DNA of 64,000 bases from Gluconobacter wancherniae NBRC 103581 (GTDB taxonomy: Bacteria > Pseudomonadota > Alphaproteobacteria > Acetobacterales > Acetobacteraceae), in the NCBI RefSeq assembly GCF_007988885.1, contig NZ_BJUZ01000001.1, forward strand, positions 1,364,001-1,428,000, in the 5' to 3' direction. Within the stretch, counting starts at the first letter, position 1, and each line of letters opens with the position of its first letter. Below the pieces are notes generated by a model. The model did not search any database. It was not told the DNA's origin and saw only the letters and a list, made by a program, of their open reading frames with translations. This document shows positions 8,229 to 44,252 of the stretch, one piece after another. Position numbers and translations under genes: made by a program.

Positions 8229-8308
8229 GACACATGCGTATCATGTCCGTAAGAACAGTCAAACGAATCAGTGTTTAAGGCCTGATTTAGTCTGATCTCG
8301 ACAGATTT

Positions 8309-9268: not shown

Positions 9269-9282
9269 TTTCTGCATAACCT

Positions 9283-10377: not shown

Positions 10378-10414
10378 GAACGCGGTCCCCGGATATCATC
10401 GCAAAATCGCAGAT

Positions 10415-10436
10415 GCGGGCAGAATATTCTGCCCGC
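10415..10436 (-). other. 22-bp perfect palindrome between rpmF and plsX
   Basis: Two 11-base arms (GCGGGCAGAAT and its complement) abut with no spacer, 8 bp after the rpmF stop on the coding strand. No T-run follows, so it is not a simple terminator. It could attenuate or protect the rpmF transcript relative to plsX, or be a protein-binding site. Confidence 0.5.
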
Positions 10437-10443
10437 AGAGTGA

Positions 10444-10656
10444 TCAGGCGCGAATGACGCCCTTGAGAGCACGGCCCGAGTTTCCTGCGGAAGCGACTTC
10501 ACGACCATCATAATGTCCGCAATGGCTGCAGACGTGGTGCGGACGCTTCAGCTCGCCGCAGTTGGAGCACTCTGCATGAGCTTCGACCTGAAGCGCATGA
10601 TGGCTGCGACGCATGCCACGACGGGACGGCGTGGTCTTTCTCTTGGGGACGGCCAT
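10444..10656 (-). CDS. rpmF: 50S ribosomal protein L32
   Basis: Small zinc-binding large-subunit ribosomal protein. The 70-residue product begins [20 protein letters not shown], the universal L32 N-terminus, and has two CxxC pairs (CSNCGE and CSHCGH) that form the zinc ribbon. It is followed by a 22-bp palindrome and plsX, and preceded by the DUF177 gene, the arrangement found across proteobacteria. Confidence 0.97.
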
Positions 10657-27541: not shown

Positions 27542-27554
27542 TTTTTCAGCATTT

Positions 27555-27568
27555 TGACGGAGAGGGCG
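27555..27568 (+). other. Candidate attL core (partial tRNA-Ser 3' end)
   Basis: TGACGGAGAGGGCG matches 12 of 14 bases of TGGCGGAGAGGGTG, the 3' end of the tRNA-Ser gene at 44163-44176. It starts 13 bp after the FUSC stop. A remnant copy of the target tRNA end is expected at the far boundary of a tRNA-borne island. The match is short, so this is tentative. Confidence 0.45.
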
Positions 27569-27689
27569 TCCGCCGATGTAGGGCGTCACGGAAAGGCGGA
27601 TCGGCGCAATAACCATTGTTTTTGATGGCTTTACAGAAATTTATGCCCTCCTGAAGAAGCAGATAGACGCATTGAAACCTATCCCGTAA

Positions 27690-27716
27690 GGTGGGACGGA
27701 AGATGGGACTGAAAAG
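27690..27716 (+). other. Left arm-type integrase boxes
   Basis: AAGGTGGGA and AAGATGGGA boxes lie 3-4 bp apart just before the integrase start. The same two boxes recur in the opposite order at 44088-44112 beside the tRNA-Ser. Paired arm-type sites at both ends are what a tyrosine integrase binds. This is inferred from repetition and position. Confidence 0.5.
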
Positions 27717-27718
27717 CC

Positions 27719-29011: not shown

Positions 29012-29140
29012 ACGGGCCTCAAACTTCCGAAAATTTTTCCGGGTCAGAAATGGTTTCAGCGCCTTCAGAACCCCGTCTCCGTGTCTGTGGCAAAATGCAT
29101 GAACTCTGCCGATCGCACTGAAAACCCACCAAACGCCCGA

Positions 29141-29205
29141 TGACGCGTCATCCATGCGTCATGTCGCCATCGCGCGGACCCGGGATGCGTCATTCAAGCG
29201 TCACA
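29141..29205. repeat. TGACGCGTCA / ATGCGTCA repeat cluster
   Basis: The 10-bp palindrome TGACGCGTCA occurs at 29141-29150 and again at 29399-29408. Between 29153 and 29203 are half-sites (ATGCGTCA twice, AGCGTCAC once). A TGACGCAT half-site recurs near the right end at about 44072. These look like binding sites for an island protein, perhaps an excisionase or replication protein. Confidence 0.45.
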
Positions 29206-29304
29206 CGCCGAGAGCGGATCAGAGCGATACCCGATCAGCAACCTCAGACCATGGCAATCCGCCATGAAATCGGGCTGCCAGATCGCTCAAGATGGCACGA
29301 TACT

Positions 29305-29333
29305 GGGTTTTTGGAGCAAGGCTCCAAAAACCC
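29305..29333. terminator. Strong hairpin, possible terminator
   Basis: Perfect 13-bp arms, GGGTTTTTGGAGC and its complement, around a 3-nt loop, followed by TTTT on the plus strand. It probably ends transcription from the integrase or insulates it from the genes after 29674. Confidence 0.6.
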
Positions 29334-29673
29334 TTTTAAAACAGTCCCTTAAAACCGTTTCATGTTCGTGCCCTGCCGTGGGCGTCCGCATCACGCTGTG
29401 ACGCGTCATTCTAACCTGCACGCGCCCCCGTTCCGGGGTCGCGCCGCCCCTGGGGCGGCGGTGCAGAACTCAACCTCTCTTCCTCTCTCTCACGACGGAA
29501 AATGATCAGAGTGGTTCTGTCGTTTTTTTTGGCTTCGCAAGGGAGACCGGGCTGGTCCTCCCCCCAGATGAGCTCACGCGGAGCGTGAGCTGGAATGGTC
29601 GCCGTGCGACCAGAGCGAGGGTTTTCTCTCTCGTTCTCTCTCTGGATCTGCCTTCTTTCTGGAGCCTTTCGCA

Positions 29674-29880
29674 ATGACCAGGTCATTCACCGAACTCGAC
29701 ACGCTTTTTGACGCCCATGCCGTTCTTGCCGGCGTTGTTCTTCCCACACTGCGCGATGTCATCGCACAGCCTGGAGCTTTCACCAGCGATACGCGGCTTG
29801 AGGGTACGCTGATCGTTCTGGCGCAGACCGTCCGTTCCCTGAACCGGGCGCTGACGGAGAACGCAGGAGACCGGACATGA
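29674..29880 (+). CDS. Small hypothetical island protein
   Basis: A 68-residue, mostly helical acidic protein (FTELDTLFDAHAVLAGVVLP). I recognise no family. Its stop overlaps the next start (ATGA at 29877), which supports translation of both. It begins a plus-strand gene cluster on the island. Confidence 0.55.
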   Translation: MTRSFTELDTLFDAHAVLAGVVLPTLRDVIAQPGAFTSDTRLEGTLIVLAQTVRSLNRALTENAGDRT

Positions 29881-30695
29881 CGTCCTTCCTGCGCACGGAC
29901 CTGGCTGTCCGCCTGATGGGTCTTGTCGCCTCCCGCGATCGCCCGGACGCTCCGCTCGGGACGACCGGGACAGCGATCTGTCTGTACGATCTTGTTTTGT
30001 CCCGGCGCGAACCCGTGCCCGTGGCTGAACGCGTGGGTCTGTGGTTTCCTGGTCGGAAGGCCGATCAGGACCCGGCCAATAGACAGGTTCTGCGCGACCA
30101 GATCCTGCAGCAGCCCATGCCAGATTTAACTGGTGCAGAAGAGGACGGCCCAGACAGCATCCTCTCTTCTTCTGTCCTTCTTCCGGATATCGTCCTGCTC
30201 ATGGGGGCACAGGAGATGACCTGGGTTTGCAGCGGAAGATCGGTCAGGCGTTCACCCAGCTTCCGACCTGGTCCGTATTCATGCAGCCGCAAGACTGATC
30301 GAAGCACTCTGGACCGCCCAGGTCCCCGGGAGCGGCCTCCCGTATCGCCTGTAACGCCTGACACCACAGGCCGGACAGTGTCGGCCTGGCCCTTCATTTC
30401 ATCTTCAAAAATCTGGAGGCTTTATGCTTCTCACAAAAACCCCGGTCGCTGCTACGACCGCGCCTCGTCACACGCGCTCTTTCTTCGAGCCAACACCGGA
30501 CGACCTTCGTCTCTACCGCGAGCTAAGCCTGCGTTTGCGGGTTCAGCAGCCCAGCTCTGTGTTTCGTTATATTCCAACACCGGCGGGGCAACACCTGACC
30601 CGGCTTGGCGACTGCGGAACCTGGGCCTGGGCGGCAGTCATCAAAGCGGCCATGGCGTGCTGGAACGATCTGCCGACAGGAGGGAAAATTGCTGA
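29877..30695 (+). CDS. Hypothetical protein; 3' half doubtful
   Basis: The first 90 residues look like protein (LRTDLAVRLMGLVASRDRP, CLYDLVLSRREPVPVAERVG), but from about 30150 the frame turns Ser/Arg/Pro-rich and runs 270 bp into the next gene. In the same place another frame gives a helix-like stretch, DLVRIHAAARLIEALWTAQ, ending at a stop near 30352. I suspect an old frameshift near 30150-30230, so the true product probably ended before 30424. No family recognised. Confidence 0.4.
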   Translation: MTSFLRTDLAVRLMGLVASRDRPDAPLGTTGTAICLYDLVLSRREPVPVAERVGLWFPGRKADQDPANRQVLRDQILQQPMPDLTGAEEDGPDSILSSSVLLPDIVLLMGAQEMTWVCSGRSVRRSPSFRPGPYSCSRKTDRSTLDRPGPRERPPVSPVTPDTTGRTVSAWPFISSSKIWRLYASHKNPGRCYDRASSHALFLRANTGRPSSLPRAKPAFAGSAAQLCVSLYSNTGGATPDPAWRLRNLGLGGSHQSGHGVLERSADRRENC

Positions 30696-31074
30696 AGATG
30701 GGACGCAGCTCAACTCCACGCCCGAGCGGATCGCCTGGGAAGCCCTGCGTCCTGTCGCGCCAGACGACATTACACTGGACGTCGAGCCCCGCATCCAGAT
30801 TGCGGGGCCGGCACTCTTCTTCTCCGATCTGGGGATCCGGTTTCAGGATCGGGTTCGGTACGTTGAGGTTGTAGGCGCCTGCGGTGCGGACCGCGTGACG
30901 CGCAATGACTGCGAAGCGAATCTTCTGGCGCAGTTCGACCGAAGACTGGAGGTCTACCGGCAGAAGTGCCTTACGCCCGAGATCTGGTATCTCAACGATC
31001 TGCTTGAGCCAGCGCAGTTACAGAAGCGTTTCCTCGCCCTGGTAGCGCCGCTTCGCTCGGGAGGCAGATCATGA
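30424..31074 (+). CDS. Hypothetical island protein
   Basis: A 216-residue protein without a recognised domain. It starts MLLTKTPVAATTAPRHTRSF after a GGAGG-like site, and is mixed in composition with several Cys (CGTWAWAAVIKAAMACW, GACGADRVTRNDC). Its stop overlaps the next gene by 4 bp, so it is co-transcribed and coupled to that gene. Such pairs are common in the accessory DNA of acetic acid bacteria; the function is unknown. Confidence 0.6.
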   Translation: MLLTKTPVAATTAPRHTRSFFEPTPDDLRLYRELSLRLRVQQPSSVFRYIPTPAGQHLTRLGDCGTWAWAAVIKAAMACWNDLPTGGKIAEDGTQLNSTPERIAWEALRPVAPDDITLDVEPRIQIAGPALFFSDLGIRFQDRVRYVEVVGACGADRVTRNDCEANLLAQFDRRLEVYRQKCLTPEIWYLNDLLEPAQLQKRFLALVAPLRSGGRS

Positions 31075-31718
31075 CTCCTGGTCCGATCCGGCTGCCGCGC
31101 TGGCCCGTCACGCGCCTGAAACTGCTCGATATCACGCCGGATCAGAAAGGAGCGCCCTATGCGGGCGCTCCCGTCACCCTGCTGCAAAGGGATGGCTTTG
31201 TCGAAGGACGCAGCCTGCTCTGGTTGAGTGAGCCCCGGCGTTCCTCGGGTCATCTGGAAGAAAGTCCCGACGAGCATGGTCAGCCTGCCTTGACCATCAG
31301 CGATCCCCTGTTCCGGGCCCTGATGCCGGTGGATGCCCCGCGACCCTTTGTTCTGGCAGGGTTTCACATGTCGTTCCTGCATCGCGTGCTGGGTGGACCG
31401 CAGGACCGGCCGCCTCATGATCTCTGTCTGTACCGGCTCGCACGACAGCGGGCGTCCTGGTTGCGGCCGTGCGGGTTGCAGGAATCCGTCCTCGAACTGC
31501 GTACAGACCTGATGACAGAACTGACGCAGGACAGCCCTTTTCTGCGTTTGAACTGCGCAGCCGCGCTGCTTGAAACACTGCTGGAGTGGGAGCCGCTGAA
31601 CCGGCTGCTGGTGCTGTCAGGCAACGTCGTCTCTCCACCGCCTGGCGAGGAGGAGCCTTTCGGCCAGGCCGCAGAGTGGGCCTGTCTGCCTCAAGGCCCT
31701 GCCATGCTGGAAGAGTAA
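31071..31718 (+). CDS. Hypothetical island protein
   Basis: A 215-residue protein with no recognised family. Leu- and Arg-rich helices dominate (FLRLNCAAALLETLLEWEPL). The start overlaps the preceding stop (ATGA). The gene is followed by a clear terminator, ending the plus-strand cluster from 29674. Confidence 0.6.
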   Translation: MTPGPIRLPRWPVTRLKLLDITPDQKGAPYAGAPVTLLQRDGFVEGRSLLWLSEPRRSSGHLEESPDEHGQPALTISDPLFRALMPVDAPRPFVLAGFHMSFLHRVLGGPQDRPPHDLCLYRLARQRASWLRPCGLQESVLELRTDLMTELTQDSPFLRLNCAAALLETLLEWEPLNRLLVLSGNVVSPPPGEEEPFGQAAEWACLPQGPAMLEE

Positions 31719-31818
31719 GTTGCCAGCGGATGCGTCGATCTTGGTGCAGGACTGTTCCACGCTGCCCTCGGCCCCAGATGATGCATCCAGCTCCAGCTCT
31801 TCAGCGGCCTGGGTTAAC

Positions 31819-31849
31819 CCCCTCTGCCTTCAACACCAGAGGGGATTTT
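31819..31849 (+). terminator. Intrinsic terminator of the island plus-strand cluster
   Basis: CCCCTCTG and CAGAGGGG arms around a 10-nt loop, then ATTTT. It lies between convergent gene groups. Confidence 0.75.
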
Positions 31850-31860
31850 CTCCTATAACC

Positions 31861-32259
31861 TCAGAACAGCCCGCTGCCGGTTTTGACGGCGGAGGCATTC
31901 ATGGTGTGGTGCCAGACGACATCGCCGTTGAAGATCACGGTCAGGGTCTTTTCCGTACCATGGGTGCCCTGATGCAGATCGCCATAGAGCGGAATAAAAT
32001 TGGCGGCGTCAGACGAGGCATTGGTGAACGCATAGCGCCACTGTTCATGGCCGCTGTCGGTGAACGTGCTCTCGCGTGGGTCTCCGAACAGGGCCCGGAT
32101 CTGATCTTTGGTGGTCACACCATCATGGATCTTCTGGTCGATGGACGCGCTGGTCTCGTTTTTGAGGGTTTCGTTCCCTTCCGAGGCACAGCCTGTCAGG
32201 GCGATTAGTCCGCTGAGAGACAATGTGACGGTCAGGGTTCTAAGAAGACGTGCAGACAT
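31861..32259 (-). CDS. BamE/SmpA-like lipoprotein (island copy)
   Basis: A 132-residue lipoprotein with lipobox LTGC near residue 24. The mature part follows the SmpA/OmlA pattern: HDGVTTKDQIRALFGDPRESTFTDSGHEQWRYAFT and a final VIFNGDVVWHH strand. It differs clearly from the chromosomal bamE at 11521. It is probably not a core Bam subunit; small SmpA-like lipoproteins occur on plasmids and phages with unknown roles. Two small membrane-protein genes lie upstream on the same strand. Confidence 0.8.
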   Translation of the reverse strand: MSARLLRTLTVTLSLSGLIALTGCASEGNETLKNETSASIDQKIHDGVTTKDQIRALFGDPRESTFTDSGHEQWRYAFTNASSDAANFIPLYGDLHQGTHGTEKTLTVIFNGDVVWHHTMNASAVKTGSGLF

Positions 32260-32272
32260 GCGGGATCCTTTG

Positions 32273-32290
32273 CTGTTTTTGCAAAAACAG
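32273..32290. other. 18-bp perfect palindrome
   Basis: CTGTTTTTG and its complement abut, 14 bp upstream of the BamE-like lipoprotein start. It could be an operator or a terminator of the upstream gene. Confidence 0.4.
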
Positions 32291-32348
32291 TCGATGACGG
32301 GACAATTGGAAAAAAGCGGGCGACCTGCCGAAAAACGAACGGACTATC

Positions 32349-32645
32349 TCAGTCCAGCCCGCGAAGCCTGCGACGGTCTTCAGCGGCTTTCAGTTTTCGA
32401 AGAAACGGTTCGCGCGGAGCCGTCCAACAGCTCATGCCCAAAATGAACGCAAAGAGCGGATGCCAGGGCAGAGCTAGGGCGATGCCGCACAAAAGACAGG
32501 CACCCGCTCCGAACCACGAGACATATCTCAGCAGAAGCCGTGTCTCGTCTTCCTCGGCACCGTATTCTTCGAGATAGGCAGCCAGACGGGCCGCGCGTTT
32601 TGCTTCGGTCGCCTCGCTGTACAGACCGTCTGTTGAAGACGTCAT
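32349..32645 (-). CDS. Small membrane protein
   Basis: 98 residues with an acidic helical N-terminus and two adjacent hydrophobic segments (YVSWFGAGACLLCGIALAL and LFAFILGMSCW) ending in a basic tail. No family recognised. It follows the next membrane gene by 6 bp. Confidence 0.55.
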   Translation of the reverse strand: MTSSTDGLYSEATEAKRAARLAAYLEEYGAEEDETRLLLRYVSWFGAGACLLCGIALALPWHPLFAFILGMSCWTAPREPFLRKLKAAEDRRRLRGLD

Positions 32646-32651
32646 GAGATC

Positions 32652-32876
32652 TTATCTCCCCCAGTGGGCATGGAAGACGACCCGGATCACCAGCGCCGTA
32701 CCCAGCATCAGAGCCGCAGGCGGCAGAATGTCGCGGGCCTTCAGCCACGCGAACAGCCTGACCGACGAACCCAGGGCCAGAACGAGCAGGAGAAGAACGA
32801 TCAGGACAAGGAGGACCGAGACGACCATGTCAGACGCCCCCTGACAGGCAAGAACAAGGGCCAGACCGGAAGACAC
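32652..32876 (-). CDS. Small membrane protein
   Basis: 74 residues with one long hydrophobic segment (MVVSVLLVLIVLLLLVLALG) and a second weaker one near the C-terminus. The internal Met at residue 17 may be the true start. It leads a short minus-strand operon with the preceding membrane protein and perhaps the BamE-like lipoprotein. Confidence 0.5.
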   Translation of the reverse strand: MSSGLALVLACQGASDMVVSVLLVLIVLLLLVLALGSSVRLFAWLKARDILPPAALMLGTALVIRVVFHAHWGR

Positions 32877-33041
32877 AACAGGACAGAGACATCATCGCCA
32901 GCTCCTTGAAGCTCCCGTGTGGCAGGACGGCCCTGCACACAAAGTGAACTCAACAAGCCAGATGATCTACGATTTCCCGTGCATCGTCAATACGGATAAA
33001 AGCCTGTTCGTAGAAACAGGTTCCCGTATATCAAGAACGCC

Positions 33042-33680
33042 TCAAGGATGAGGCACGCCGCCGGTCCAGACCACTTCGCCGAGCAACTTGAAGCAGTCCA
33101 GGCGATCCGCCGCGACGTCCTGGGGCGGGTAGCGATGATTGTCGGCGATCACCCGGACCCCGCCACCGAGTTTAGGATCAAGGCGACGGACCAGGACGGC
33201 GCCAGCACTTTCGAGCGCATAGAGCGCGCTGCCCGTCACAGTCGTGACGCTTCGATCCACGATGACCAGATCACCCGAGGACAAAGTCGGCTCCATCGCA
33301 TCGCCTGCATTGCTGATGAGGCAAAGGGCTGTGAGGTCCCGGGGAATGACGCTCTGCAACCAGTCGCGACCAATCCGGAGGCCATCTTCATGAGCATCAT
33401 ACCAGGGCACGACGATCTGACGGGTCGATGTGGTCTGGACCGCTGTCGCTCCGGCAGGTGAGCCGCCAACCGTGCCAAAGGCGATCCAGTCCAGGGACAC
33501 GCCGCAGACCCGGGCCAGCGACGCAAGGGCGGAGAACTTCATCTCCCCGCCATTCATGTAATCCCTCAGGGTCGTGTACGGCACGCCCGCCGCCTTGGCG
33601 GCATGGGTGATGCCAATACTCTGGGCCGCTTCGCGGAGGCGCTCGCCGCGCTCGCGCATCAGGCGGATCTGGTCGTCCAT
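33042..33680 (-). CDS. CI/C2-type repressor without S24 catalytic residues
   Basis: A 212-residue regulator with an N-terminal HTH (THAAKAAGVPYTTLRDYMNGG) and a C-terminal LexA/S24 fold. In the nucleophile motif the usual GDSMEPT reads GDAMEPT (Ala128), and the usual LVKRL reads LVRRL (Arg165). Both catalytic positions are thus lost, so self-cleavage after DNA damage is unlikely. I use the ATG at 33680; the frame extends to 33746. It probably controls the divergent island genes through the palindrome at 33723-33740. Confidence 0.85.
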   Translation of the reverse strand: MDDQIRLMRERGERLREAAQSIGITHAAKAAGVPYTTLRDYMNGGEMKFSALASLARVCGVSLDWIAFGTVGGSPAGATAVQTTSTRQIVVPWYDAHEDGLRIGRDWLQSVIPRDLTALCLISNAGDAMEPTLSSGDLVIVDRSVTTVTGSALYALESAGAVLVRRLDPKLGGGVRVIADNHRYPPQDVAADRLDCFKLLGEVVWTGGVPHP

Positions 33681-33722
33681 GAGTTTACGCTTTCGCCTGG
33701 AATGTCGGGGCACGCAGAGAGT

Positions 33723-33740
33723 CCTCATTCGGAAATGAGG
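33723..33740. promoter_or_regulatory. Candidate operator of the island repressor
   Basis: CCTCATT and AATGAGG arms around CGGA, a perfect 18-bp inverted repeat 43 bp upstream of the repressor start. Nearby TATCAATACGATA is a second, shorter inverted repeat. Confidence 0.45.
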
Positions 33741-33759
33741 TATCAATACGATATTCCGC

Positions 33760-33788
33760 TTGATATATAAGTCGGAAAACCGTATCTC
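33760..33788 (+). promoter_or_regulatory. Candidate rightward promoter
   Basis: TTGATA and TATCTC hexamers at 17-bp spacing, upstream of the gene at 33872 and next to the operator candidates. Found by eye. Confidence 0.4.
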
Positions 33789-33871
33789 TTGACGTCGAAA
33801 TGTTGCGTGGCCCGTGACTCGTCATCGTCAGATCCTCGCATGAAACCGATATTTTTGTCCAAGGGATTGTC

Positions 33872-34114
33872 ATGCCTGAAGATCCACTGTTGCCACCACC
33901 CCGTCCAGCCGGTCTCGAAGAGCTGCATGCCGCTCTGCACGACGTGCTGCGTCTGATCGAGATCGAGCATGCGCTACTCAAAGGACGGTTGGAGAGTCTG
34001 CGGGCGGATACGGAAGGTGCGCGCCTGCTGGAAGGCGTGATGGTGCTGGGCGCCGTGCTACAGCAGCGGATGGGCGGTCTGCTCCAGCTTTGCCGCGAGG
34101 TCGGGAAGCTGTGA
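33872..34114 (+). CDS. Small hypothetical island protein
   Basis: 80 residues, almost entirely helical with heptad-like Leu (LEELHAALHDVLRLIEIEHALLKG). No family recognised. It lies divergent to the repressor, where an early phage-type gene would be. Confidence 0.55.
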   Translation: MPEDPLLPPPRPAGLEELHAALHDVLRLIEIEHALLKGRLESLRADTEGARLLEGVMVLGAVLQQRMGGLLQLCREVGKL

Positions 34115-34205
34115 CGGATCGGTCCATCGGACACCGCGTGTCCTGAACCTGCCGTTTGGCTTCGTCGAAGCCCCGTCATCCCTTCCCATACGGTCATTAT
34201 CCCTT

Positions 34206-35054
34206 ATGTCAGAATACTCAGACCCGTCTTCTGAGCACGTTGTGCTGGACGGACACTGTCTTGCGCGTGCACTTCCTTTTGGCTCCTATCCGCTGACAGA
34301 GGCGCAGACACGGATCCGGAAAGCCTTCTTCAACACGCCATTGGGATACAGCCGTCTGCGTCGGCCGTTCATTGAGCGGTTCAAGAAAGACTGCTCCTCA
34401 GGTCCTGTCGATGCGACCATGTTCGGGTTGAAGGTGCGATTTTACCCGCAGGATAACCAGACGGATGCAAAATCAGCGGTCTGTGGCGCGTGCTACAATC
34501 ATCGCGAGCTGAAATGGCTGCGGCGTCATCTGCCGAAAGGCGGGACGTTTGTAGATGTCGGGGCGAATATGGGGTTCTTTTCGCTCTATGCTGCCCAGAG
34601 AGAAGCCCGCGTCATTGCCATCGAGCCGAACCCGGTTCTGTTCGAGCGGCTGGCCACCAATATGAGGCTGAACGGGATACGGGCCGATCTCTTGCGTGTG
34701 GCGGTGGGAGATTAGGAGGGCTCTGGTCAACTCGTGCAGGTGAACAGGGATTTTGGCGGTGGTCGGATTGGTGCGGGACACGGCGCTGCGGTGCGTATCC
34801 GTCCGCTTGTGGACATTCTGCAGTCCTGCGATGTGACAGCCGTGCATGTGCTGAAGATCGACATCGAGGGCTACGAAGACAGGGCGCTGCTGCCGTTTTT
34901 CCGCGAGGCACCAGCGGCGTTGTGGCCCGATCATCTCATCATGGAAGACACCGAGCATGGGCAGTGGGCCCAGAACGTCTTTCCGGTATTACGCCGCTGT
35001 GGGTATGAGCGCCGCTCCCGTAGTCGGGGGAATATCCTGCTCTCCCGGTTCTGA
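34206..35054 (+). pseudogene. FkbM-family methyltransferase split by an amber codon
   Basis: Two ORFs at 34206-34715 and 34734-35054 lie in the same frame, separated by a TAG at 34713-34715. The first has the SAM site FVDVGANMGFFSLYAAQ and VIAIEPNP; the second continues with LKIDIEGYEDRALLPFF, the FkbM motif. Read through the stop, the product is one 282-residue methyltransferase. I call it a nonsense pseudogene; a sequencing error or amber suppression could also explain it. FkbM enzymes methylate sugars and polyketides. Confidence 0.8.
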
Positions 35055-35315
35055 GTGATGGTGGTGAGGAGAAGCTTGTCAGCTTTTTTTTTTGGGGGGG
35101 GGGAGCGGAAGGTCTGCTTTCAGTTACCAAATCCGTGATTGGGGTCATCACCTAATTTTGGCATTAGAGATTGACCGAAGCGGCAGACACCTATGTCTCC
35201 CCACCGCCGACGCTTCCCAACCAAAAAAGGTTGTCAGTATAACGTAAGTTCAATTAGGTAATTATTCCTAGAAAATTGGATGATTTTTCCATTTCTAGAC
35301 TAATAGAAAGGGATT
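35055..35315. other. Intergenic stretch with T10-G10 homopolymer runs
   Basis: Near 35083-35103 about ten T are followed by about ten G on the plus strand. No gene is visible, and GC content falls sharply rightward from here to about 36200. Confidence 0.6.
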
Positions 35316-36014
35316 TTATTTATTATCAATAAATGTTTTTATTTCATTAAAATTCGTAACGGAGAGAGTTGTTTCCGAAAGTGATTTTGGTTCGGTATGG
35401 GACATATCAGAGTCGAAGCCTGTTTTTTCTGAAGCACTCACGATTCCGTAGATACATCTTTCCTTCATGTTTATAATTCCTGATCCGGAATCTCCTGCCT
35501 GAAATTGGCCTTGTATTAGAGGCCCCAAATGCTCTACGGGGACAAGTCGACGGAAACCCAAAAGGGCGAAATTATCGTTTGGTTGCACGGGCTTAACGCA
35601 CAGCGGCATTGAATGTAAGTCTTTATAATAACGGGAGTAAATCTCCGAAACCTTTACCAAAGCTACATCGTTTTCACCAAAACTAAAATTTTTAGAAATT
35701 TTCAATACTTTGGCATTCAATATTTTATCGTTTATTGCCACATTAACATCATCCCCGACAGACGAGTAATAAACACATCCATTCTCTTTGGGATTTAAAA
35801 TATGAGACGCAGTCATAATAATGCCATTCCCGATATATATTCCGCTTCCTTGAGAGCTTCTGCAATTATTTTTTCGAGGATTTATTTGAACATGTGCCCC
35901 TCTTGAAAGAATAGACAATAAGGTCCTATTTAAAGGGTCGATATTTTACTTATTAGAGCAACAAGAAGAGAGAATTATTGAAAATAATAAAACAACAGGA
36001 ATTTTATTTTTCAT
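35316..36014 (-). pseudogene. Trypsin-like protease cut off from its lipoprotein signal by an in-frame TAA
   Basis: The minus-strand frame has an ATG at 36014 coding a lipoprotein signal (MKNKIPVVLLFSIILSSC), then a TAA at 35946-35948, then an open chymotrypsin-fold domain. A TTG at 35918 would restart it. The catalytic triad looks intact: His in MTASHIL, Asp in NDVALVKV and Ser in QAGDSGSGI. Low GC suggests foreign origin. Without the signal the protease would stay cytoplasmic. A nonsense mutation is my reading; sequencing error and read-through remain possible. Confidence 0.65.
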
Positions 36015-36872
36015 TTTGATGTCTTTCATAATGCTTCTTAACTTTATGAGTAAATTTTAGTTCGGTGTGAATCAAGTTCTTATTGGTCGTAGTCTGCCTG
36101 TGCTTTCGAAATAAAGAGCTTATATCGGCCTGCACTGGGCCACTCCTCGTTTTAAACTGAGATGCATCAAATTTGGTTATCACTGCAAGCGGCGGCAAAA
36201 ATTTAGTTCAGCCATTCGAAATTCAATTGCATATGTCGGCTTTCCCACAGTCGCTTGAATGTCCGCTATGTAGGCGAAAGCGGAAGGTCCGCTTTCGCCT
36301 CATCTCGGACACCCAAGCGGTTGTGACGAATGCCCGAAAGCCGATATTGCTAGGCGAGTAACGATAGACCGAGTTTGGGGACTTTCGCGACCGTCAGCTT
36401 CAGAGATACCTACCCTAGGAAAGCGGCCATTCACGGAACCGCAAAGCCTACTACCGGAGAGTGGCAACGCGCCCTAATATCGGCCATGCGGTCGGGCTAA
36501 GTTCAAGCCTGAAAGCAGCCGCTATACTGAGTTGGTCAGATGTTTAATTTCAGGCTCAGTCGGCAACGACTGGACCAGGCATCGCTTTCAGTCGTCGTGT
36601 AATCCAGACAACGCCGACTAAATCAGGCAGAGTCTCGCCGAGATGTATAATAGTTCGGTCGATGCCAGTAGGTAGGCTTGCCCCTTCGCCTGTCGCGTGA
36701 CTGCGGCGATTGCTTGGCCGTCGGTCAGGCCAATCTCGCATAGTTCCGCCATCCCCTGTAATCCGGAGCAGAAATGTCGAAGGCGCCGCCGCCGATATCT
36801 TTCGACGACGCCGCGGAGCAATAAATTTGGCGATGCCGAGGTTATCGGTAAAGGTCTGGCTCCGATCAGTCG
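36015..36872. other. Region with no supported gene, containing an inverted repeat
   Basis: About 860 bp. Short frames exist (for example 36004-36198 and 36556-36741 on the minus strand), but none has a recognisable domain. Two of them, around 36560-36820, look like pieces of one decayed gene in different frames (AELCEIGLTDGQAIAAVTRQ and then TLPDLVGVVWITRRLKAMPG). Confidence 0.5.
36272..36300. repeat. Perfect inverted repeat, 13-bp arms
   Basis: AGGCGAAAGCGGA and its exact complement around a 3-nt loop. It lies between the low-GC protease region and the methyltransferase operon. It may be a terminator-like hairpin or an element remnant. Confidence 0.7.
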
Positions 36873-38513
36873 CTATTGGCCGTCTGGCGGTCCATCACGG
36901 CCGTGCCGTAATCGATGAGCTCGAAGAGATTGCCATGCTGCTCGCAGATTTCGTAATTCGCGGCTGCTAAGTCGCGATTTCTTGGCAAGCCATCGATCAC
37001 CGAAATCGAGTATTGCCGAAACGTCGCCATCGGCTTTTCGGTGCGCCGCAAGAAAATCATCGAACTCCTGATCCGACGGTTCATGGTACGCGATCGGCAA
37101 TCCCCGAAATTCCTTCGGCGAAAGCTCGAGCACGCCTCCTCCATAGAATCGACCGTCGGTCTCGGCGAAGAGAAGTGTCATCGAGTTATAGAACGAGAAG
37201 CAAAGGCCGCGGGGGGTGAAACCGTCCTTCATCCGCAATCCGTAAGCGGTGTCCGTGATGTAGACGTCGGCCTCATTCAAGCAAAGTCGCGGATAGTCGT
37301 GCGACCGTTTGAAAACGAAAGCCGGAGTCTTCGGCACCAACGGCACGCGATACCAGGGATCGCGATTTCGGCATTTATATCGCTTATTGTAGCCGCGCTC
37401 CTCGCCTGCGTATACATAATCCCGGAGTTTTTCGGGCAATTCTTCGGTCGGAACCGACATGTAAACAAGGCGGCAGGGCCCGCGATTAGCTAGTTCCTCG
37501 AATTGGCTCGCTTCGAATATAGGTTGCCGTGCCGAGAGGCTGCCTTTCTTTAGAATAGGCAAGGTATGTTCGAGAATATCGAGCTCTTTTGCTTCGTCTT
37601 CGGTCAAAATGAAATAATCGTTGGCGGCCGTCACGATGCCTGGTGCGCTGGTGCAATGATCACCGATGACCGGCATTTTTGTGCGCAACTCATTGGCGGT
37701 CGCGAACGCGTCACCGCCTATGAGAAAAGAGCTCAACTCGAGAGCCAGATTGTCGGTCGACGCAAGGTCGAGCCTAGTCTCGCTGCGTTCCAATAAGGAT
37801 GTCATCGACCTGACTTGCTGAACGAACTGACCTGGTTCTGCAGCCGATGATCTCCCGACGAATATAATGGCATCCTGATCGATCTCCGGAAACGCTTTCT
37901 CGTTCGAGATGAAGAGATCTATCCGCGCAAGCTTGCTGCTCAGCCATTGCAGGGCAGCTTGCCCATATGCGACTGTCATGATCTCATACGGGAGAATGAA
38001 GGCGAGAACGCCCGTCCGGTTGAGCATCGTTGTTGCAGCGATGACGAATGCAGCCCAACTGTTCTTAAAGTTCGTCTTCGGATAATCAATTGCTTCCGCC
38101 AGCTCTTCGAGCGATGCTTTGAATTCCTCCGAGAAATTATGTTTTCGAATGAATGGCGGATTCCCGATGATGAGATCGTAACTGACAGACTGGGCGATTT
38201 CTTCTAGTGCAAAATCGATAAAATTTCCTGTCCGATAATCACGTAGGCAAGAGTTGGGACGGTCTCGGATTTCGAGCTGCTCAATCACCTGCTCATCGAT
38301 ATCGATCGCCGTAAGAAACAGAGTGGGAAGGGCCGCCTCGAGCGCATTAACGAATGCCCCATCACCGACGCTGGGTTCCAGGGCTCGTCCGGCATTCGGC
38401 GGCAGAATGGTCGCGACGAATTCCGTCAGCGCATACGCGACGCTCGTTGGTGTGTACACTGCACCCGTAAGGCGGACGAGTTCGCGTTGGTCAATTGTTT
38501 GCACGAAATTCAT
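36873..38513 (-). CDS. N6-adenine DNA methyltransferase (Eco57I-like)
   Basis: A 546-residue methyltransferase, the last gene of the four-gene operon. It has TGAVYTPTSVAYALTEF (residues 16-32), the SAM motif LEPSVGDGAF (45-54), an acidic DID (71-73) and the catalytic NPPF (118-121), typical of N6-adenine gamma-type enzymes such as Eco57I. The rest (about 200-546) suits target recognition, and no nuclease domain is evident. It overlaps the HNH gene by 23 bp. In an R-M-like system it would protect host DNA, and the HNH protein may cut unmodified DNA. Confidence 0.85.
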   Translation of the reverse strand: MNFVQTIDQRELVRLTGAVYTPTSVAYALTEFVATILPPNAGRALEPSVGDGAFVNALEAALPTLFLTAIDIDEQVIEQLEIRDRPNSCLRDYRTGNFIDFALEEIAQSVSYDLIIGNPPFIRKHNFSEEFKASLEELAEAIDYPKTNFKNSWAAFVIAATTMLNRTGVLAFILPYEIMTVAYGQAALQWLSSKLARIDLFISNEKAFPEIDQDAIIFVGRSSAAEPGQFVQQVRSMTSLLERSETRLDLASTDNLALELSSFLIGGDAFATANELRTKMPVIGDHCTSAPGIVTAANDYFILTEDEAKELDILEHTLPILKKGSLSARQPIFEASQFEELANRGPCRLVYMSVPTEELPEKLRDYVYAGEERGYNKRYKCRNRDPWYRVPLVPKTPAFVFKRSHDYPRLCLNEADVYITDTAYGLRMKDGFTPRGLCFSFYNSMTLLFAETDGRFYGGGVLELSPKEFRGLPIAYHEPSDQEFDDFLAAHRKADGDVSAILDFGDRWLAKKSRLSSRELRNLRAAWQSLRAHRLRHGRDGPPDGQ

Positions 38514-39102
38514 AATCTTCGATGGATTTGGTCAATTCTCGGAAATGTTTCAGCAGATCGAGTGCTTCTGACGTATCACCCTTTCCCTCCTGCTCCAGCG
38601 CGGTGATCAGGGCATCGGCATCATCTCGAACTGCGCGCATGCGCCGGGCATTCCACAGTAGCTCGTGTCGCAGGAGATGAAGGCGAAGTCGTTTGACAGC
38701 ATAGATCCCGATCGGGCTGCGGCCGACGATGCGACCATCCGCCAGACGCTCGAAGTGCTGCTCATAATCGGCGGTGCATGGATCGACGAAGCCTTCCTTC
38801 CCGTTGTTAGGAACCGCCGGATCCGTGCCCACCCAATGATCGGATTTCCCGACGTTGCAGAACCGGCAAGCGTAAACGAGGTTCTCGTAGACTAGCGCAA
38901 GGTCCGGAAACAGCGCCTTGGGGGCGAAATGATCGATATGAAAGCCGATGCGATCAATTCGTTCGTCGCTATCGCCACAATAGCCGCAGGCCTGAAAGAA
39001 GTCGCGTCGGAGATCGGCGCGGTAGAGAGTGTATCTCGTCTTAGCGGCGACTGTCGCGCGAACCGGCAACGCCGATCGTATCGTGATAGCAGCAGCCATC
39101 AT
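38491..39102 (-). CDS. HNH endonuclease
   Basis: A 203-residue protein with a zinc-ribbon HNH nuclease: CGYC (Cys39, Cys42), the catalytic HIDH (55-58), Asn74 and CRFC (Cys79, Cys82) followed by NxGK. This HNH type occurs in defence proteins such as PtuB of Septu systems and retron-associated nucleases; the C-terminal half is helical. The start overlaps the receiver gene stop (ATGA) and the end overlaps the methyltransferase gene. It is the likely effector of the operon. Confidence 0.85.
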   Translation of the reverse strand: MMAAAITIRSALPVRATVAAKTRYTLYRADLRRDFFQACGYCGDSDERIDRIGFHIDHFAPKALFPDLALVYENLVYACRFCNVGKSDHWVGTDPAVPNNGKEGFVDPCTADYEQHFERLADGRIVGRSPIGIYAVKRLRLHLLRHELLWNARRMRAVRDDADALITALEQEGKGDTSEALDLLKHFRELTKSIEDYEFRANN

Positions 39103-39773
39103 CCGTTCCCCGTGTTCAAATTTTTCTTGATGCGATCGATCAGTTCCTCGGTGGCCGTGAGTAGCTCGTTCTGCCGTTCATAGAAATCGCCATCAAGCAG
39201 TAGCTTTTTCGTCGTTTGCGCTATTTCATGCTCGCCGCCCATGTTCGCCTCGATCAACCCATCAAGCTCGATGATGCGATCGATCTCGGGCGCGGAAAGC
39301 TTGGTGCGTTCGAGCTTCAATAATTCTTCGAGCTCACCGCTCCATGCTTCCATCTGACGGCGCATTCGCTGGATCTGAAGATTGATGCGCTCGAACAGGG
39401 GGCGGACGCCGACCCCGGCTGCCTCGATTTCCTTGGAATAAACGCGGTTTACGTCGTCGGCGGCGTGCAGCGCTTCGTTGTCGTAAGATGTGCGGATGAA
39501 ACAGGGAAAGCCGGTGCGGATTTGCAGAAACGCTGCGACAAGAGCGCTGCCGTCGTAGTCGGTGCCGGCAGCATCGGCGAGGCGGAAATCGGAGATTAGC
39601 GCTTCGAAATTAATCTGAGCCAGGTTCGCAACCATCTCCGCGAGCGTCGGCTCGGGCGGCAGAATGATGATTTTGCGAAAGAGCTTGGTCTTTTTCGCAT
39701 CGATATAGAAATCCTCACGCGCGTCCTCATTCTCGTCAACATAGACGATCACTGGCAAACCCTCGTCGGCCAT
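39099..39773 (-). CDS. Receiver-domain protein with helical tail
   Basis: 224 residues. The N-terminal half is a CheY-like receiver: acidic pair Asp13-Glu14 (YVDEN), phosphoacceptor Asp62 (LISDFRL), Thr95 (FIRTSYD) and Lys114 (YSKE). All residues needed for phosphorylation are present. The C-terminal half (about 130-224) is a charged, probably coiled-coil helical region instead of a DNA-binding domain. The ATPase/kinase gene lies 8 bp upstream, so phosphotransfer from it is expected. This is not a typical transcription regulator. Confidence 0.8.
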   Translation of the reverse strand: MADEGLPVIVYVDENEDAREDFYIDAKKTKLFRKIIILPPEPTLAEMVANLAQINFEALISDFRLADAAGTDYDGSALVAAFLQIRTGFPCFIRTSYDNEALHAADDVNRVYSKEIEAAGVGVRPLFERINLQIQRMRRQMEAWSGELEELLKLERTKLSAPEIDRIIELDGLIEANMGGEHEIAQTTKKLLLDGDFYERQNELLTATEELIDRIKKNLNTGNG

Positions 39774-39781
39774 ACTTCCTC

Positions 39782-42334
39782 CTAGCCTTCGGCTTTATAA
39801 GCGGGAAATCTGATTGTCAGAGCAAAGCCCGGCTCGCCTAGCGCCGACCGAAGCGAGACCGCCCCCCGATAGTCATCGACGACGTTGCGAAGGAGCCACA
39901 TTCCCAACCCTGTCCCGGAGGCGTCGCCACTTGCTTCTTCCTTTTTCGAGGAGATACCGAACTGAAAGATGTCTTCGGGCAGATTGAACTCGTCAGAAAG
40001 CCCAGGACCGGTGTCGCGGTACCTGACTTCGATCCAGCCATTGTCGGGATTAGCGGCATCGATGAAGATTTCCCGCTTGTTCTCGGGGCCTGGTTTGACC
40101 AGCGCTTCAACAGAATTGTTGATCAGGTTGTAGAAAACACTGTCAAGATCGATCTCATGTGCAAGCAGGTTGAGATTGGCACCTTTCTCGGCATTCGGCG
40201 TGAGGTTGATGCTTCGCGAGCGCAGAAAATCATCCCAATAAGTCCCGAGACCCTTTAGATAGTCACCGAGATCGATAACGCGCCGCCGCCGCTTGGCAGG
40301 TGAAACTGCGGACAAGGCAAATGTGACCCAGCGGCTGACCTTTTCATCTTGGCGGCGCAAGCGCTCGATGATGCGCAAGGGATTTTCGATCTCCCCGATG
40401 TCGCTCATCTTCGTCTGATCGGCGACCTCAAGCACGGCATTTGACAAGCGCTCGGAGCGGGAATCGATGTTTGCCCGTATCTGCTTGAGCTCATGAGTGA
40501 ACGATACGAGCACGGTGCCGAGGGTGGCCATGCCACGCATGACCTGGAGGTTGTCCCTCAGCGTCTCGTTCTTTTTTACTTCAGAATCATAGGCCTGCGA
40601 TACCTGGCGCAGCTTTGGATCCGGTTTTTGCTTGGAAGGCCCGCTGGAGCCGCGCTCCTTATCCGACGACGGCGGCGCTTGATCTTCCGGGGGTGGCGCT
40701 TCCTGAAGCACCTGCTCGGCGATCTTGCGGCCTTCCTCGATATCCTTCGCCTCTGGGTTATCAAGATCATAGGCGACACTGAACTGCGACAGAATGTACG
40801 CACGATCTTTCTCGAACTCGCGCAACAGTCCCATCACGATTTCACGGAACGTGGAGAATGCACGTTCATTCATGATGCCTTCGCGGTTCGACTGATCAGC
40901 GAGGGCAGGGTTGTCGTTCTTGGTGATGTGGATGGTGCCGGCCACCTGTTGTGGCGGTACGCGCCATCCCACTCTCGAAGCTTGGGCCGGGTTGCGTGCC
41001 GTGCGTTCGCCAAGCAGCAGCCAGTCATAGCCGGGCGTGCTAGGTTCGCCATACGGCCTGACGCGAAAATTGTCGCGATAGAGCCGGATGCCGCCCGAGT
41101 TCTTCAGCCACCGTCGACGCTTCGACACGTCGAAATGCTTTTGTGGAAATCTCCGCAGGGTATCCGCTGCAGCGTTGGCGAGTTTGAAAAAGTAAAAAGT
41201 GAAGGAGAAGGGACCGACCGACAGATAATCTCCTAACTGGTCCTTCGCGATACCGAGGATTGTCGAGAGATTGGTGTCGATCGTGACTTCACCGGCGTTG
41301 AAATCCTGCTTGCGATAGGGCTCCTGCTGCATGCTGGGCAGCGTGAACACTCTCGGGCGGATAGCCGCGACATCGATTTCCTGTCGTGCGAGGCGGATTT
41401 TGATGTCGCCATTGGCCATGACGTCGGCCAGCATCCGATAATCGAACTGATCCGGTGGAAAATTGTCGATGAACCCGCTCTCGGTGGGTACACGATGATC
41501 ATAGACGAAGATATCGAAGTCGCTGCGGTCGTGCGGTGGAAGCAATGCTTCCAGCGTCTCCTTGAGACGCAAGCTGTCGCGCTTATCCCAGATGTCATTC
41601 AGCAGCGTTATTTTGATCGCCGTTCCGGTCTCGTATTTGATCGGCGCGCCTTCGCCGAGGCGGGCTGGACCGACGGTCGGTAGAAGCTCTGCTAAGCCCT
41701 GACTCTCCAGATACGCATTTAGCGTTCCCTGCTCGGTCTCTAAGACCGCCTTCACATCGCTAATGATCTTTCCGGCGCCCTCGAATTCAGTCCAGTCGAC
41801 CAGCCAATGTGCCCGCTTCGCGCCGGCGACTGCGGATTGCAATTCGCATTCCTGGCCAAGTCTATCGAGCGCGAAACGCCCTATGCCTTTCGCGCCGGTG
41901 ACGACGCGACCGCCGACAGACAACCCGTCCATCTCCTTTGCGTTGGTCCCAATCACCATCCAACGTTCCTCGATAGTCGACGCGGACATTCCGTGACCGT
42001 TATCGATGATCCAGAGGTCTAGGAAACCGGCATAAGCGGCATCGAGCGTGGCTCGTTCGGCGGCCGATACTTCGCCCTTCTCTCGCCATGTGTCGCCGAA
42101 CGACTCGAACATCGCACCCGTCGCGGGGAAGGCATGGATAAGCAAGTTATGCTCGCGAGCGGACAGCGTTTTGGGAGATGTTTTCCAGCGGGGAAGAAAC
42201 AGAACAGCACATACGGTCGCATCTGCGTCATACCCGTTTTTGACCAGTTCCGTGACGGCACCCTGGGAAGTCGCCACGTTCTCCCTGCCGATCAAGCGTG
42301 CAGCTCGTGCCGAGACTTTGAACGGAACCTTCAA
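39782..42334 (-). CDS. Dual GHKL ATPase: MutL/MORC-like N-terminus and histidine-kinase C-terminus
   Basis: An 850-residue protein. The N-terminal ATPase has the N-box ELVKNGYDAD (Glu29, Asn33, Asp36), DNGHG (111-115) and the G2-like TGAKGIGRFALDRLG (146 on), as in MutL/MORC/Hsp90-type clamps. After a long middle and a Pro-rich linker near 565-590 comes a dimerisation helix with candidate phosphoacceptor His614 (FTHELKQIRANI). A second ATPase follows with NLINNSVEAL, DTGPGL and GTGLGMWLL. The start is a TTG with GGGGGTGAAAG upstream. It heads the operon and presumably senses DNA or infection and signals through the receiver. Confidence 0.85.
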   Translation of the reverse strand: MKVPFKVSARAARLIGRENVATSQGAVTELVKNGYDADATVCAVLFLPRWKTSPKTLSAREHNLLIHAFPATGAMFESFGDTWREKGEVSAAERATLDAAYAGFLDLWIIDNGHGMSASTIEERWMVIGTNAKEMDGLSVGGRVVTGAKGIGRFALDRLGQECELQSAVAGAKRAHWLVDWTEFEGAGKIISDVKAVLETEQGTLNAYLESQGLAELLPTVGPARLGEGAPIKYETGTAIKITLLNDIWDKRDSLRLKETLEALLPPHDRSDFDIFVYDHRVPTESGFIDNFPPDQFDYRMLADVMANGDIKIRLARQEIDVAAIRPRVFTLPSMQQEPYRKQDFNAGEVTIDTNLSTILGIAKDQLGDYLSVGPFSFTFYFFKLANAAADTLRRFPQKHFDVSKRRRWLKNSGGIRLYRDNFRVRPYGEPSTPGYDWLLLGERTARNPAQASRVGWRVPPQQVAGTIHITKNDNPALADQSNREGIMNERAFSTFREIVMGLLREFEKDRAYILSQFSVAYDLDNPEAKDIEEGRKIAEQVLQEAPPPEDQAPPSSDKERGSSGPSKQKPDPKLRQVSQAYDSEVKKNETLRDNLQVMRGMATLGTVLVSFTHELKQIRANIDSRSERLSNAVLEVADQTKMSDIGEIENPLRIIERLRRQDEKVSRWVTFALSAVSPAKRRRRVIDLGDYLKGLGTYWDDFLRSRSINLTPNAEKGANLNLLAHEIDLDSVFYNLINNSVEALVKPGPENKREIFIDAANPDNGWIEVRYRDTGPGLSDEFNLPEDIFQFGISSKKEEASGDASGTGLGMWLLRNVVDDYRGAVSLRSALGEPGFALTIRFPAYKAEG

Positions 42335-42903
42335 CTTTCACCCCCGCTTTGATTGGCAAAATTCTGCTAACTGATTGCCTTAGGCCAATGACGGTCGCAG
42401 CGTAAAGACTCGTGATGCCTTAGAACGGCGACCACTGGGACGAGCGTCCGCTTCTTAGGCTTTTTTTTCGTCAAAGTAGTCAGTCTGCAACCGGCCAACG
42501 TGGGCTTTCCACACGAGAAAGCGGCCGGTCTGCACCTGGGAACAGAAAAATCGATGCCGAGCGTCTTGGAAGGGTCGGTAGGCGTCATGAATATGGGCGC
42601 AGGCTATTTCTGCTTTCGGCTATCGATTCCCGATAGCGGCCCTACCGCTTACCCCCATAATTGACAACTTGGGATGTCAGATATTGCTTTAATGGCGGCC
42701 GTGAGGCTACGGCTCTTCACCGCATAGTGGGGCGTGCAAACTCACTGTGCCTCAAAGGGGCTTCACCTGTGGTGCCATCGGGGCCTGTTTCGGTCTCGCG
42801 ATGGAAAATCAGGGGGTGCTATCCAAAGCCGGGCCTTAGCCGTGCGATGCTGTGTCCAACCAAGATCCCTTAAAGCGCAAGCAACATCGCGCTGCTCATC
42901 GGA
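42335..42903. other. Intergenic region upstream of the ATPase operon
   Basis: 570 bp with no supported gene. It must hold the operon promoter. A hairpin with GCTATCG/CGATAGC arms lies at 42619-42637. A short minus-strand frame at 42367-42588 has no domain and an unlikely composition. Confidence 0.5.
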
Positions 42904-43449
42904 TCAGATTGGTCTTTTATAGAAGAGAACGTGTTCTGCAATTACATTGAGTGGCAAACCTGCCTTCCGGTATTCGTCATAAACCTGGATCATCCGGCCT
43001 GATGTCAGCTGCGGAAGAAGGTCATCCAGTGTCAATGCATCAGACCAGAAAGATGTCCGGGCGAACAGCAATTCCATGAGCGCATCTATCTGTGTCCAAA
43101 AGTCCGGGCCCCTGGTTGTTGAATGGGGCTGTCGCAGTGTCAGCCTCTCTATGATCTCGTCTGTTTTCCTATTTGAGAAATTTGGGTTTTTGAAATAAAC
43201 GGGAGACCACCTTACGCTGATATCGCGCGGTAAAGAGCGCCCGACGATTTTGGAAATGTCCAACAGTGACCAACTGGCTTGCGGGTGATCAGGATCTGTA
43301 TAAGTGCCTTCCATGGGGCCTTTGAAGACACTCGTGAGATGCCAGTAGAAAAAATCCTGGGCAAAATTTTTTTCTTCAAGAGAGCTCCATGGAGCTTCCC
43401 ATGAAAATTCTATTTCAGCGACATCAAACATCGGGGCGACTTTCAGCAT
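42904..43449 (-). CDS. Hypothetical island protein
   Basis: 181 residues, rich in aromatics (FDVAEIEFSWEAPWSSLEEKNFAQDFFYWHL). No recognised family. It lies between the AlpA-like gene and the ATPase operon on the same strand and could be a cargo gene or part of the defence module. The stop is at 42904. Confidence 0.6.
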   Translation of the reverse strand: MLKVAPMFDVAEIEFSWEAPWSSLEEKNFAQDFFYWHLTSVFKGPMEGTYTDPDHPQASWSLLDISKIVGRSLPRDISVRWSPVYFKNPNFSNRKTDEIIERLTLRQPHSTTRGPDFWTQIDALMELLFARTSFWSDALTLDDLLPQLTSGRMIQVYDEYRKAGLPLNVIAEHVLFYKRPI

Positions 43450-43492
43450 TGAAGCGGGATTTGCAGGGGTCTGGCCCTGATGGGCGAGATGA

Positions 43493-43750
43493 CTAGAAAT
43501 CCGGCCTCAAGGGCACTGGCGCAGGTGCCTGAAAGCCAACATCGTCGCGCCGAACGAGATGCTCGACGTCACGTAGCCGAAAGAGCGTCCGGCGTGGTCC
43601 GATCTTGTAGCGCTGCAGAACCCCAGCCGCGACATACCGATCAATTGTTGAGAGAGAGACACAAAGCCGTATCGCAGCTTCGCGACGGCTTATGAAAAAG
43701 TCATCCGAACGATGACCCGGCAATACAGAATCCATGACACACCTATCCAA
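43493..43750 (-). CDS. AlpA/excisionase-like HTH protein
   Basis: 85 residues with a single winged-HTH of the AlpA/MerR-like type (FISRREAAIRLCVSLSTIDRYVAAGVLQRYKIGPRRTLFRLRDVEHLV). Such proteins regulate P4-type integrases and direct excision. It lies 300-400 bp from the right end of the island near the tRNA-Ser, where an excisionase gene is expected. Confidence 0.75.
   Translation of the reverse strand: MDRCVMDSVLPGHRSDDFFISRREAAIRLCVSLSTIDRYVAAGVLQRYKIGPRRTLFRLRDVEHLVRRDDVGFQAPAPVPLRPDF

Positions 43751-44252
<502 letters not shown>

Follow-up and report, generated by a model that had tools for sequence, protein, structure and literature searches.

A conserved four-gene cassette with a predicted MORC-like histidine kinase, a receiver, an HNH nuclease and an exchangeable adenine methyltransferase, and its candidate role in defence

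Described relatives and the Gluconobacter locus

Two-component-like protein pairs encoded beside restriction-modification (R-M) genes have been described as the families HEF_HK (PF19191) and Response_reg_2 (PF19192) (Bellieny-Rabelo et al. 2021, PMC8011034), and MORC-like ATPases sited in R-M operons have been described by Iyer et al. (PMC2292703). Here, we describe a four-gene cassette with likenesses to both, found in a 64,000-nucleotide stretch of the Gluconobacter wancherniae NBRC 103581 genome (contig NZ_BJUZ01000001.1, positions 1,364,001 to 1,428,000), referred to below as the window. The four genes lie uninterrupted on the minus strand at 36873-42334 and encode K, an 850-aa protein predicted to join a MORC-like ATPase to a histidine kinase (39782..42334, TTG start); R, a 224-aa protein with a receiver domain (residues ~4-138) and a C-terminal long-helix extension to residue 221 (39099..39773); H, a PtuB/TIGR02646-like HNH nuclease of 203 aa (38491..39102); and M, an Eco57I-type N6-adenine DNA methyltransferase of 546 aa with NPPF at residues 118-121 (36873..38513). 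K and R are separated by an 8 bp gap, R and H overlap by 4 bp, and H and M overlap by 23 bp.

An initial annotation of this DNA had proposed the same minus-strand set, and its coordinates and spacings agree with ours. Its domain calls for K, H and M are supported by Pfam, and its receiver call for R by Response_reg matches among homologues and a structural model. The order of the proposed operon recurs across phyla, and the key receiver residues it listed are intact: D13, E14, D62, T95 and K114 are identical in 84, 81, 88, 85 and 86 of 88 loci, and the exceptions are mostly conservative. A promoter and terminator scan gave a signal no better than chance.

The likeness to the HEF_HK pairs is considerable. 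These consist of a kinase with HATPase_c_3, DHp and HATPase_c domains and an adjoining receiver with no known output domain, their R-M neighbours include HNH_2 and N6/N4 methyltransferases, and a link to paraMORC is drawn (PMC8011034). The cassette has this same architecture, and our K profile recognizes one HEF_HK kinase (E 6e-26). The published pairs differ in favouring C5 methyltransferases, and we found no description of a fixed HNH and N6-methyltransferase cassette in the portion of PMC8011034 considered. PF19191 has no match to K (E<=0.1), nor is it one of the 25 families, out of 44, listed across 44 homologues. PF19192 likewise has no match to R, and the 25 families listed, out of 134, across 81 homologues do not include it. 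Membership of K and R in these two families was rejected. Among 12 cassette genomes, PF19191 passes its cut-off in G049 alone, at a locus (L111) from which a 60-base stretch is absent from the cassette locus L059, while PF19192 has no match in G000 and exceeds its cut-off only at that other locus of G049. The one HEF_HK receiver examined, at L111 (Taibaiella), is a 546-aa open reading frame (ORF) unmatched by our R profile. Since the K profile recognizes an HEF_HK kinase though the Pfam models miss K and R, the two groups look like sister families of one superfamily. Related kinase/receiver pairs beside R-M genes are thus already known, and by these profile comparisons K and R fall outside the published models.

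The initial annotation had recognized no named system in the set. This stands for PADLOC, the check that it had proposed, where no model matches R and K has one weak REase_II match, to its first GHKL stretch; K and R as known PADLOC proteins were accordingly rejected. It does not stand for the general kind, a dual-GHKL kinase with a receiver beside R-M genes, which was published in 2021 (PMC8011034).

Other described systems share parts of the cassette. The MORC/paraMORC proteins of R-M operons have an N-terminal GHKL and S5 module and lie near methyltransferases and HNH nucleases (PMC2292703); in the cassette, however, K joins this kind of ATPase to a complete histidine-kinase core and is paired with a receiver, and the terms 'receiver' and 'response regulator' are absent from the main text of that paper. 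The Septu and retron PtuB nucleases resemble H, but H scores 40.9 bits, under the NCBIfam cut-off of 52.15, and a scan of the four cassette genes and four neighbours found no PtuA ATPase, the PtuA models matching H alone, over its HNH region (best 25 families per protein). Detocs is a defence system with two-component logic, but it has three genes, its best-known form carries an ATP-cleaving effector, and no DNA methyltransferase is mentioned in the part of PMC11249213 considered; no Detocs-named model is among the PADLOC matches listed, and whether PADLOC 2.0 includes Detocs models was not checked. In VcSduA, a Shedu protein with an N-terminal GHKL ATPase, the ATPase is joined to a nuclease and both are required against phage (PMC12137116); the nuclease is a fused PD-(D/E)xK domain, and a histidine-kinase core, receiver and methyltransferase are unnamed in the corresponding part of that paper. 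DefensePredictor (PMC13092281) includes a system with HATPase and REC domains, predicted but not validated, that could be a relative. We found no published description of the four-gene set in a search that left subscription literature mostly uncovered, and it may be in print elsewhere.

A conserved unit with an exchangeable methyltransferase

A tblastn search with K found the full set on Ensifer, Salipiger and Bacteroides plasmids, M placed ahead of the other genes in Deinococcus, and a split kinase with a different methyltransferase-like ORF in Rhizobium. A kinase-alignment scan of a genome collection confirmed at least 491 relatives, and the best 80 were kept. Together with five plasmid loci, two from a viral collection and the window, these make up 88 loci, selected by similarity to K. 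K and R are each found in 88, K by virtue of the selection, while H is found in 86 and M in 84. All four genes are present in 84 of the 88, every time on the same strand, with the order K-R-H-M in 81 and M-K-R-H in three, and neighbouring genes mostly overlap slightly or lie a few bases apart; M is cut or weakly matching in three of these 84 (L014, L036 and L041). Two of the exceptions (L047 and L085) stop within or shortly after R, and a third, L004, has another methyltransferase-like ORF in place of M. At L004, on a Rhizobium phaseoli plasmid, an internal stop splits the kinase into two ORFs (7935-10562), and this cassette is therefore probably decaying.

As a test less biased toward K, R and H were searched separately in 395 genomes of the Bacteroidota, scoring few first-look candidates per genome, such that misses are possible. 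Strong R matches (>=123 bits) occur in five of the 395, the next best match scoring 32.5 bits; strong H matches (>=165 bits) occur in the same five and no other, always adjoining R, the next best scoring 57.4 bits. One of the five, the Pedobacter genome G043, was the chosen centre of the search, and its copy, L025 of the survey, has the full K-R-H-M order; the order is likewise complete in the other four. The initial annotation had named the occurrence of homologues apart from each other as what would contradict it, and neither this search nor the 88-locus survey found them so. Beyond the cassette, no Pfam family occurs more than three times among the 123 nearest ORFs from 75 loci (Phage_integrase occurs three times), so we take the unit to end at K and M. 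Chance neighbours were rejected as an explanation on the grounds of the co-occurrence of R and H in the same five genomes and the lack of conservation in the flanks. The four genes are a conserved unit.

Within this unit, M behaves differently from the other three. Pairwise-distance correlations were computed for 77 loci, after 7 of the 84 were dropped as partial, odd or apparent near-duplicates, with 500 permutations. They reach 0.84 for K-R, 0.78 for H-R and 0.75 for H-K, and 0.44 for K-M, 0.37 for H-M and 0.37 for M-R. M comes in two types, short and long, with a mean identity of 17% between them, and on a K tree (83 rows, built by a quick method, with a warning on the long branches L008 and L086) the M type changes 10 times, nine of them forced by starred branches, compared with three changes for a cysteine-pair trait of H. 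The contrast is plain between L072 and L076, which are 64% identical in K, 57% in R and 55% in H but 16% in M, and L004 and L014 carry a further methyltransferase type, different again. The sequence comparisons thus indicate one common history for K, R and H, with M exchangeable. H and M are not inherited as a matched endonuclease and methyltransferase pair, and from the swaps of M and the weak H-M correlation we infer that H does not share the sequence specificity of M and that specificity resides in M or in a complex of K with M.

For M itself, Pfam finds Eco57I (2e-12) and M_Eco57I_C (9e-30), the PADLOC MTase_II model matches at 1e-112 over nearly the full length, as for a type II-like methyltransferase, and across 84 loci P119 and P120 are kept in 84 and N118 in 83.

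In K, Pfam identifies HATPase_c_3 (4e-13) and HATPase_c (1.5e-12), and both families are matched in 44 of 44 kinases scanned. The TTG start is plausible, as residue 1 aligns with the starts of homologues (alignment A1). The structural model suggests a MORC-like ATPase joined to a histidine kinase. Its N-terminal half, residues 6-515 (40790..42319, minus strand), is modelled as a GHKL ATPase with an S5-like transducer, the module of MORC and paraMORC, with likeness to MORC3, MORC2 and Hsp90; E29, N33 and D36 are kept in 85 of 88 rows (three gaps), D111, G113 and G115 in 86, and K149, G150 and G152 in 87, the stretch K149-G152 being conserved. Residues 602-847 (39794..40531, minus strand) are modelled as a histidine-kinase core of DHp and catalytic domains. 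Here H614, the predicted phospho-acceptor (codon 40493..40495, minus strand), does not vary in any of the 88 aligned kinases and is followed by E in 63 and D in 25, and N736, N740, D774, G776, G778, G807, G809 and G811 are kept in all 88.

R alone gives no Pfam match at E<=0.1. Of the 81 homologues aligned, however, 46 match Response_reg at E<=1, the best of them at 6e-6, and the structural model of R is a receiver fold, so the view that R is not a receiver was rejected despite its own empty Pfam result. D62, the predicted phospho-acceptor aspartate (codon 39588..39590, minus strand), is present in 88 of 88 receivers; with H614 and the modelled histidine-kinase and REC folds, this makes up a two-component signature. 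Pfam recognizes no output DNA-binding domain in R, and its homologues give only weak, scattered matches.

For H, of about 200 aa, Pfam sees the HNH domain only (5e-7), and the PADLOC matches are PtuB-like (best PtuB 1.3e-17). H58 and N74 are kept in 86 of 86 proteins and N83 in 85. Roughly one third of the proteins have lost C42 and C82, each of them the second cysteine in a putative zinc pair; on the tree, a Cys pair is lost in 29 of the 83 HNH proteins.

Setting, spread and distant relatives

The cassettes are carried on plasmids, on viral-collection contigs and, in the window, on a genomic island. The island is a 16.6 kb insert (27542..44162), delimited by flank spacing in congeners, with a tRNA-Ser gene at one end (44163-44252) and an integrase gene, identified by Pfam, at the other (27719-29011); no long direct repeat was found at its ends. 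The flanking genes lie <200 bp apart in nine of 24 congeners, 0.3-0.5 kb apart in two and ~1.2 to 22 kb apart in nine; three could not be judged owing to contig breaks, and in one the genes are far apart. The tRNA-Ser site is an insertion hot spot, filled differently among these congeners. R was not found in any of the 24 congeners searched, and 16 genomes of the same class gave one weak match (1.4e-5, 26 bits). The island also holds a gene for a phage-type repressor (S24 peptidase and helix-turn-helix, 33042-33746) and, in a stretch of ~40% GC beside the cassette, one for a trypsin-like peptidase (35316-35918) with a weak PADLOC PDC-M35A match. Elsewhere, at L009 (3083-5546), the cassette has genes for an XhoI-type endonuclease and an additional M-family protein directly upstream.

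Of 75 K-tree rows with a phylum label, 42 are Bacteroidota and 22 Pseudomonadota, the window included, and the rest are spread over eight phyla; one carrier is an archaeal metagenome-assembled genome (Methanolobus, L033).

A wider survey covered 78 viral-collection loci. R and H are kept in 18 of the 19 closest, two of which are the L002 and L003 contigs again, and the remaining one (L211) ends with K. More distant kinases often have a DNA methyltransferase gene close upstream (n=34: Eco57I 12, N6_N4 8, C5 7 and N6_Mtase 7, the families overlapping), with a few nucleases or others. The gene downstream has one invariant Asp column (51 of 51), matches Response_reg at E<=0.01 in eight cases, and in one of 51 matches a PADLOC candidate model, PDC-M60B (8e-4); in fused receivers of 450 aa, credible PDB matches are limited to the receiver part. 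The gene after the receiver varies (n=30): three have a metallo-beta-lactamase (MBL) fold, two are Vsr and one HNH_2, and most are uninformative. A Hymenobacter plasmid has the order N6-methyltransferase, kinase, 227-aa protein and MBL-fold protein, and on a Methylorubrum plasmid the kinase is preceded by a PAPS-reductase-family gene.

Kinases of the same build also occur with an MBL-fold protein (L191:4725-8504), an unknown 226-aa protein (L190:4980-8450) and a C5 methyltransferase (L193:5001-9466); a by-eye reading of the 226-aa protein as caspase/CHAT-like got no support. At L189 (1-9412), genes for a DUF4007 protein, an AAA protein and a PAPS-reductase-family protein precede a related kinase, and we read this neighbourhood as a hint of a connection to DNA phosphorothioation.

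A proposed relay, its rivals and its meaning

We propose that the cassette is a restriction-like, mobile defence system run by a two-component relay, as the initial annotation had in part suggested. M, judging from its family, would methylate host DNA on adenine, at a site of its own. K, as a MORC-type ATPase clamp with a histidine kinase, would engage DNA and detect what is unmarked or foreign, perhaps joined by M as a specificity part, such that self/non-self specificity would reside in M or the K-M pair rather than in H. K would then autophosphorylate at H614 and pass the phosphate to D62 of R, both of them conserved residues, and phosphorylated R, through its helical extension, might free or activate H, which would cut DNA.

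This reading is based on the co-occurrence and order of the genes, the unconserved flanks, the kept relay and nuclease residues and the models of K and R. It is also favoured by the lack of a recognized output DNA-binding domain in R, by correlations among K, R and H that exceed those with M, by the swapping of M types, by the frequent setting of distant kinases between an upstream DNA methyltransferase and a downstream receiver-like gene with a variable gene after it, and by the carriage of cassettes on plasmids, viral-collection contigs and an island. We put the probability of the full model at about 0.5, and that of a defence role of some kind higher.

Several observations weigh against it. 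M is partly co-inherited with K, R and H: all six gene pairs, those with M included, correlate above all 500 permutations, and when the loci are divided by M type (three further loci dropped), K-M reaches 0.67 and H-M 0.54 in the short-M group (43 loci), compared with 0.22 and 0.32 in the long-M group (31 loci). At L062 (7929-11852), a K-R-H set has no adjoining methyltransferase that we could find. The case for DNA binding by K is one of fold similarity. On the K tree, phylum labels switch 13 times against a minimum possible of nine, and transfer between phyla in this sample therefore appears modest. K yields two partial matches among 50,697 annotated phage records. Finally, the island setting implied by the initial annotation holds for the window, but the 123 flanking ORFs of the homologues have little mobility or defence content and, with no control set, no clear enrichment in defence genes.

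The same parts could serve abortive infection, with the N-terminal ATPase of K sensing an infection cue, R switching H, H damaging host and phage nucleic acid, and M acting as a sensor or guard. H is indeed closest to PtuB, including the PtuB of retron Ec78/I-A entries, and the gene after the receiver varies in distant relatives (MBL fold, Vsr, HNH_2). We nevertheless consider this unlikely, as nearly all cassettes come with a methyltransferase (by profile in 84 of 88, with a different methyltransferase-like ORF in L004) and several classes of methyltransferase lie upstream of distant kinases, both of which self-marking fits better. Another candidate is an ordinary type II R-M system, in which H, as a site-specific endonuclease, would be the match of M, and the K-R pair would do no more than tune its level or timing; the MTase_II match makes M a typical adenine methyltransferase of type II, and related kinases are known in R-M neighbourhoods (PMC8011034). 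A matched pair is difficult to reconcile with the swapping of M while K, R and H stay together, with an H that tracks K and R more than M, with the replacement of M by a methyltransferase of 16% identity beneath a 55% identical H, and with the small size of H, in which Pfam sees an HNH domain alone, and this explanation seems to us decidedly unlikely.

The cassette may also lie outside defence altogether, as a MORC-like module for DNA remodelling or repair, or for epigenetic regulation, with the nuclease employed in repair. The modelled MORC-type fold of K would suit such a role, and DNA looping by MORC-like proteins in R-M operons, with possible repair roles, has been proposed (PMC2292703). 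The patchy presence, with R found in none of the congeners, the plasmid and island carriers and the pairing of a nuclease with a methyltransferase point to conflict rather than housekeeping, and leave this explanation improbable.

To our knowledge, no classical R-M type releases its nuclease via a kinase-to-receiver relay. It is possible, and we suggest it tentatively, that the proposed relay represents a new mechanistic class, 'restriction by phosphorelay', in which a MORC-type clamp-kinase reads DNA modification, a receiver relays the signal to a nuclease that itself has no sequence specificity, and specificity is set by a plug-in methyltransferase that can be exchanged while the nuclease stays as it is. 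Related kinases may link the same core to further kinds of modification enzyme (C5, N4/N6 and perhaps phosphorothioation) and other effectors, making this a general defence architecture among bacteria, with at least one archaeal genome included. If true, this would explain the function of the receiver/kinase pairs noted beside R-M genes since 2021, would provide a clear functional readout for a MORC-like ATPase of prokaryotes, and would show how cells can swap a methyltransferase and not kill themselves.

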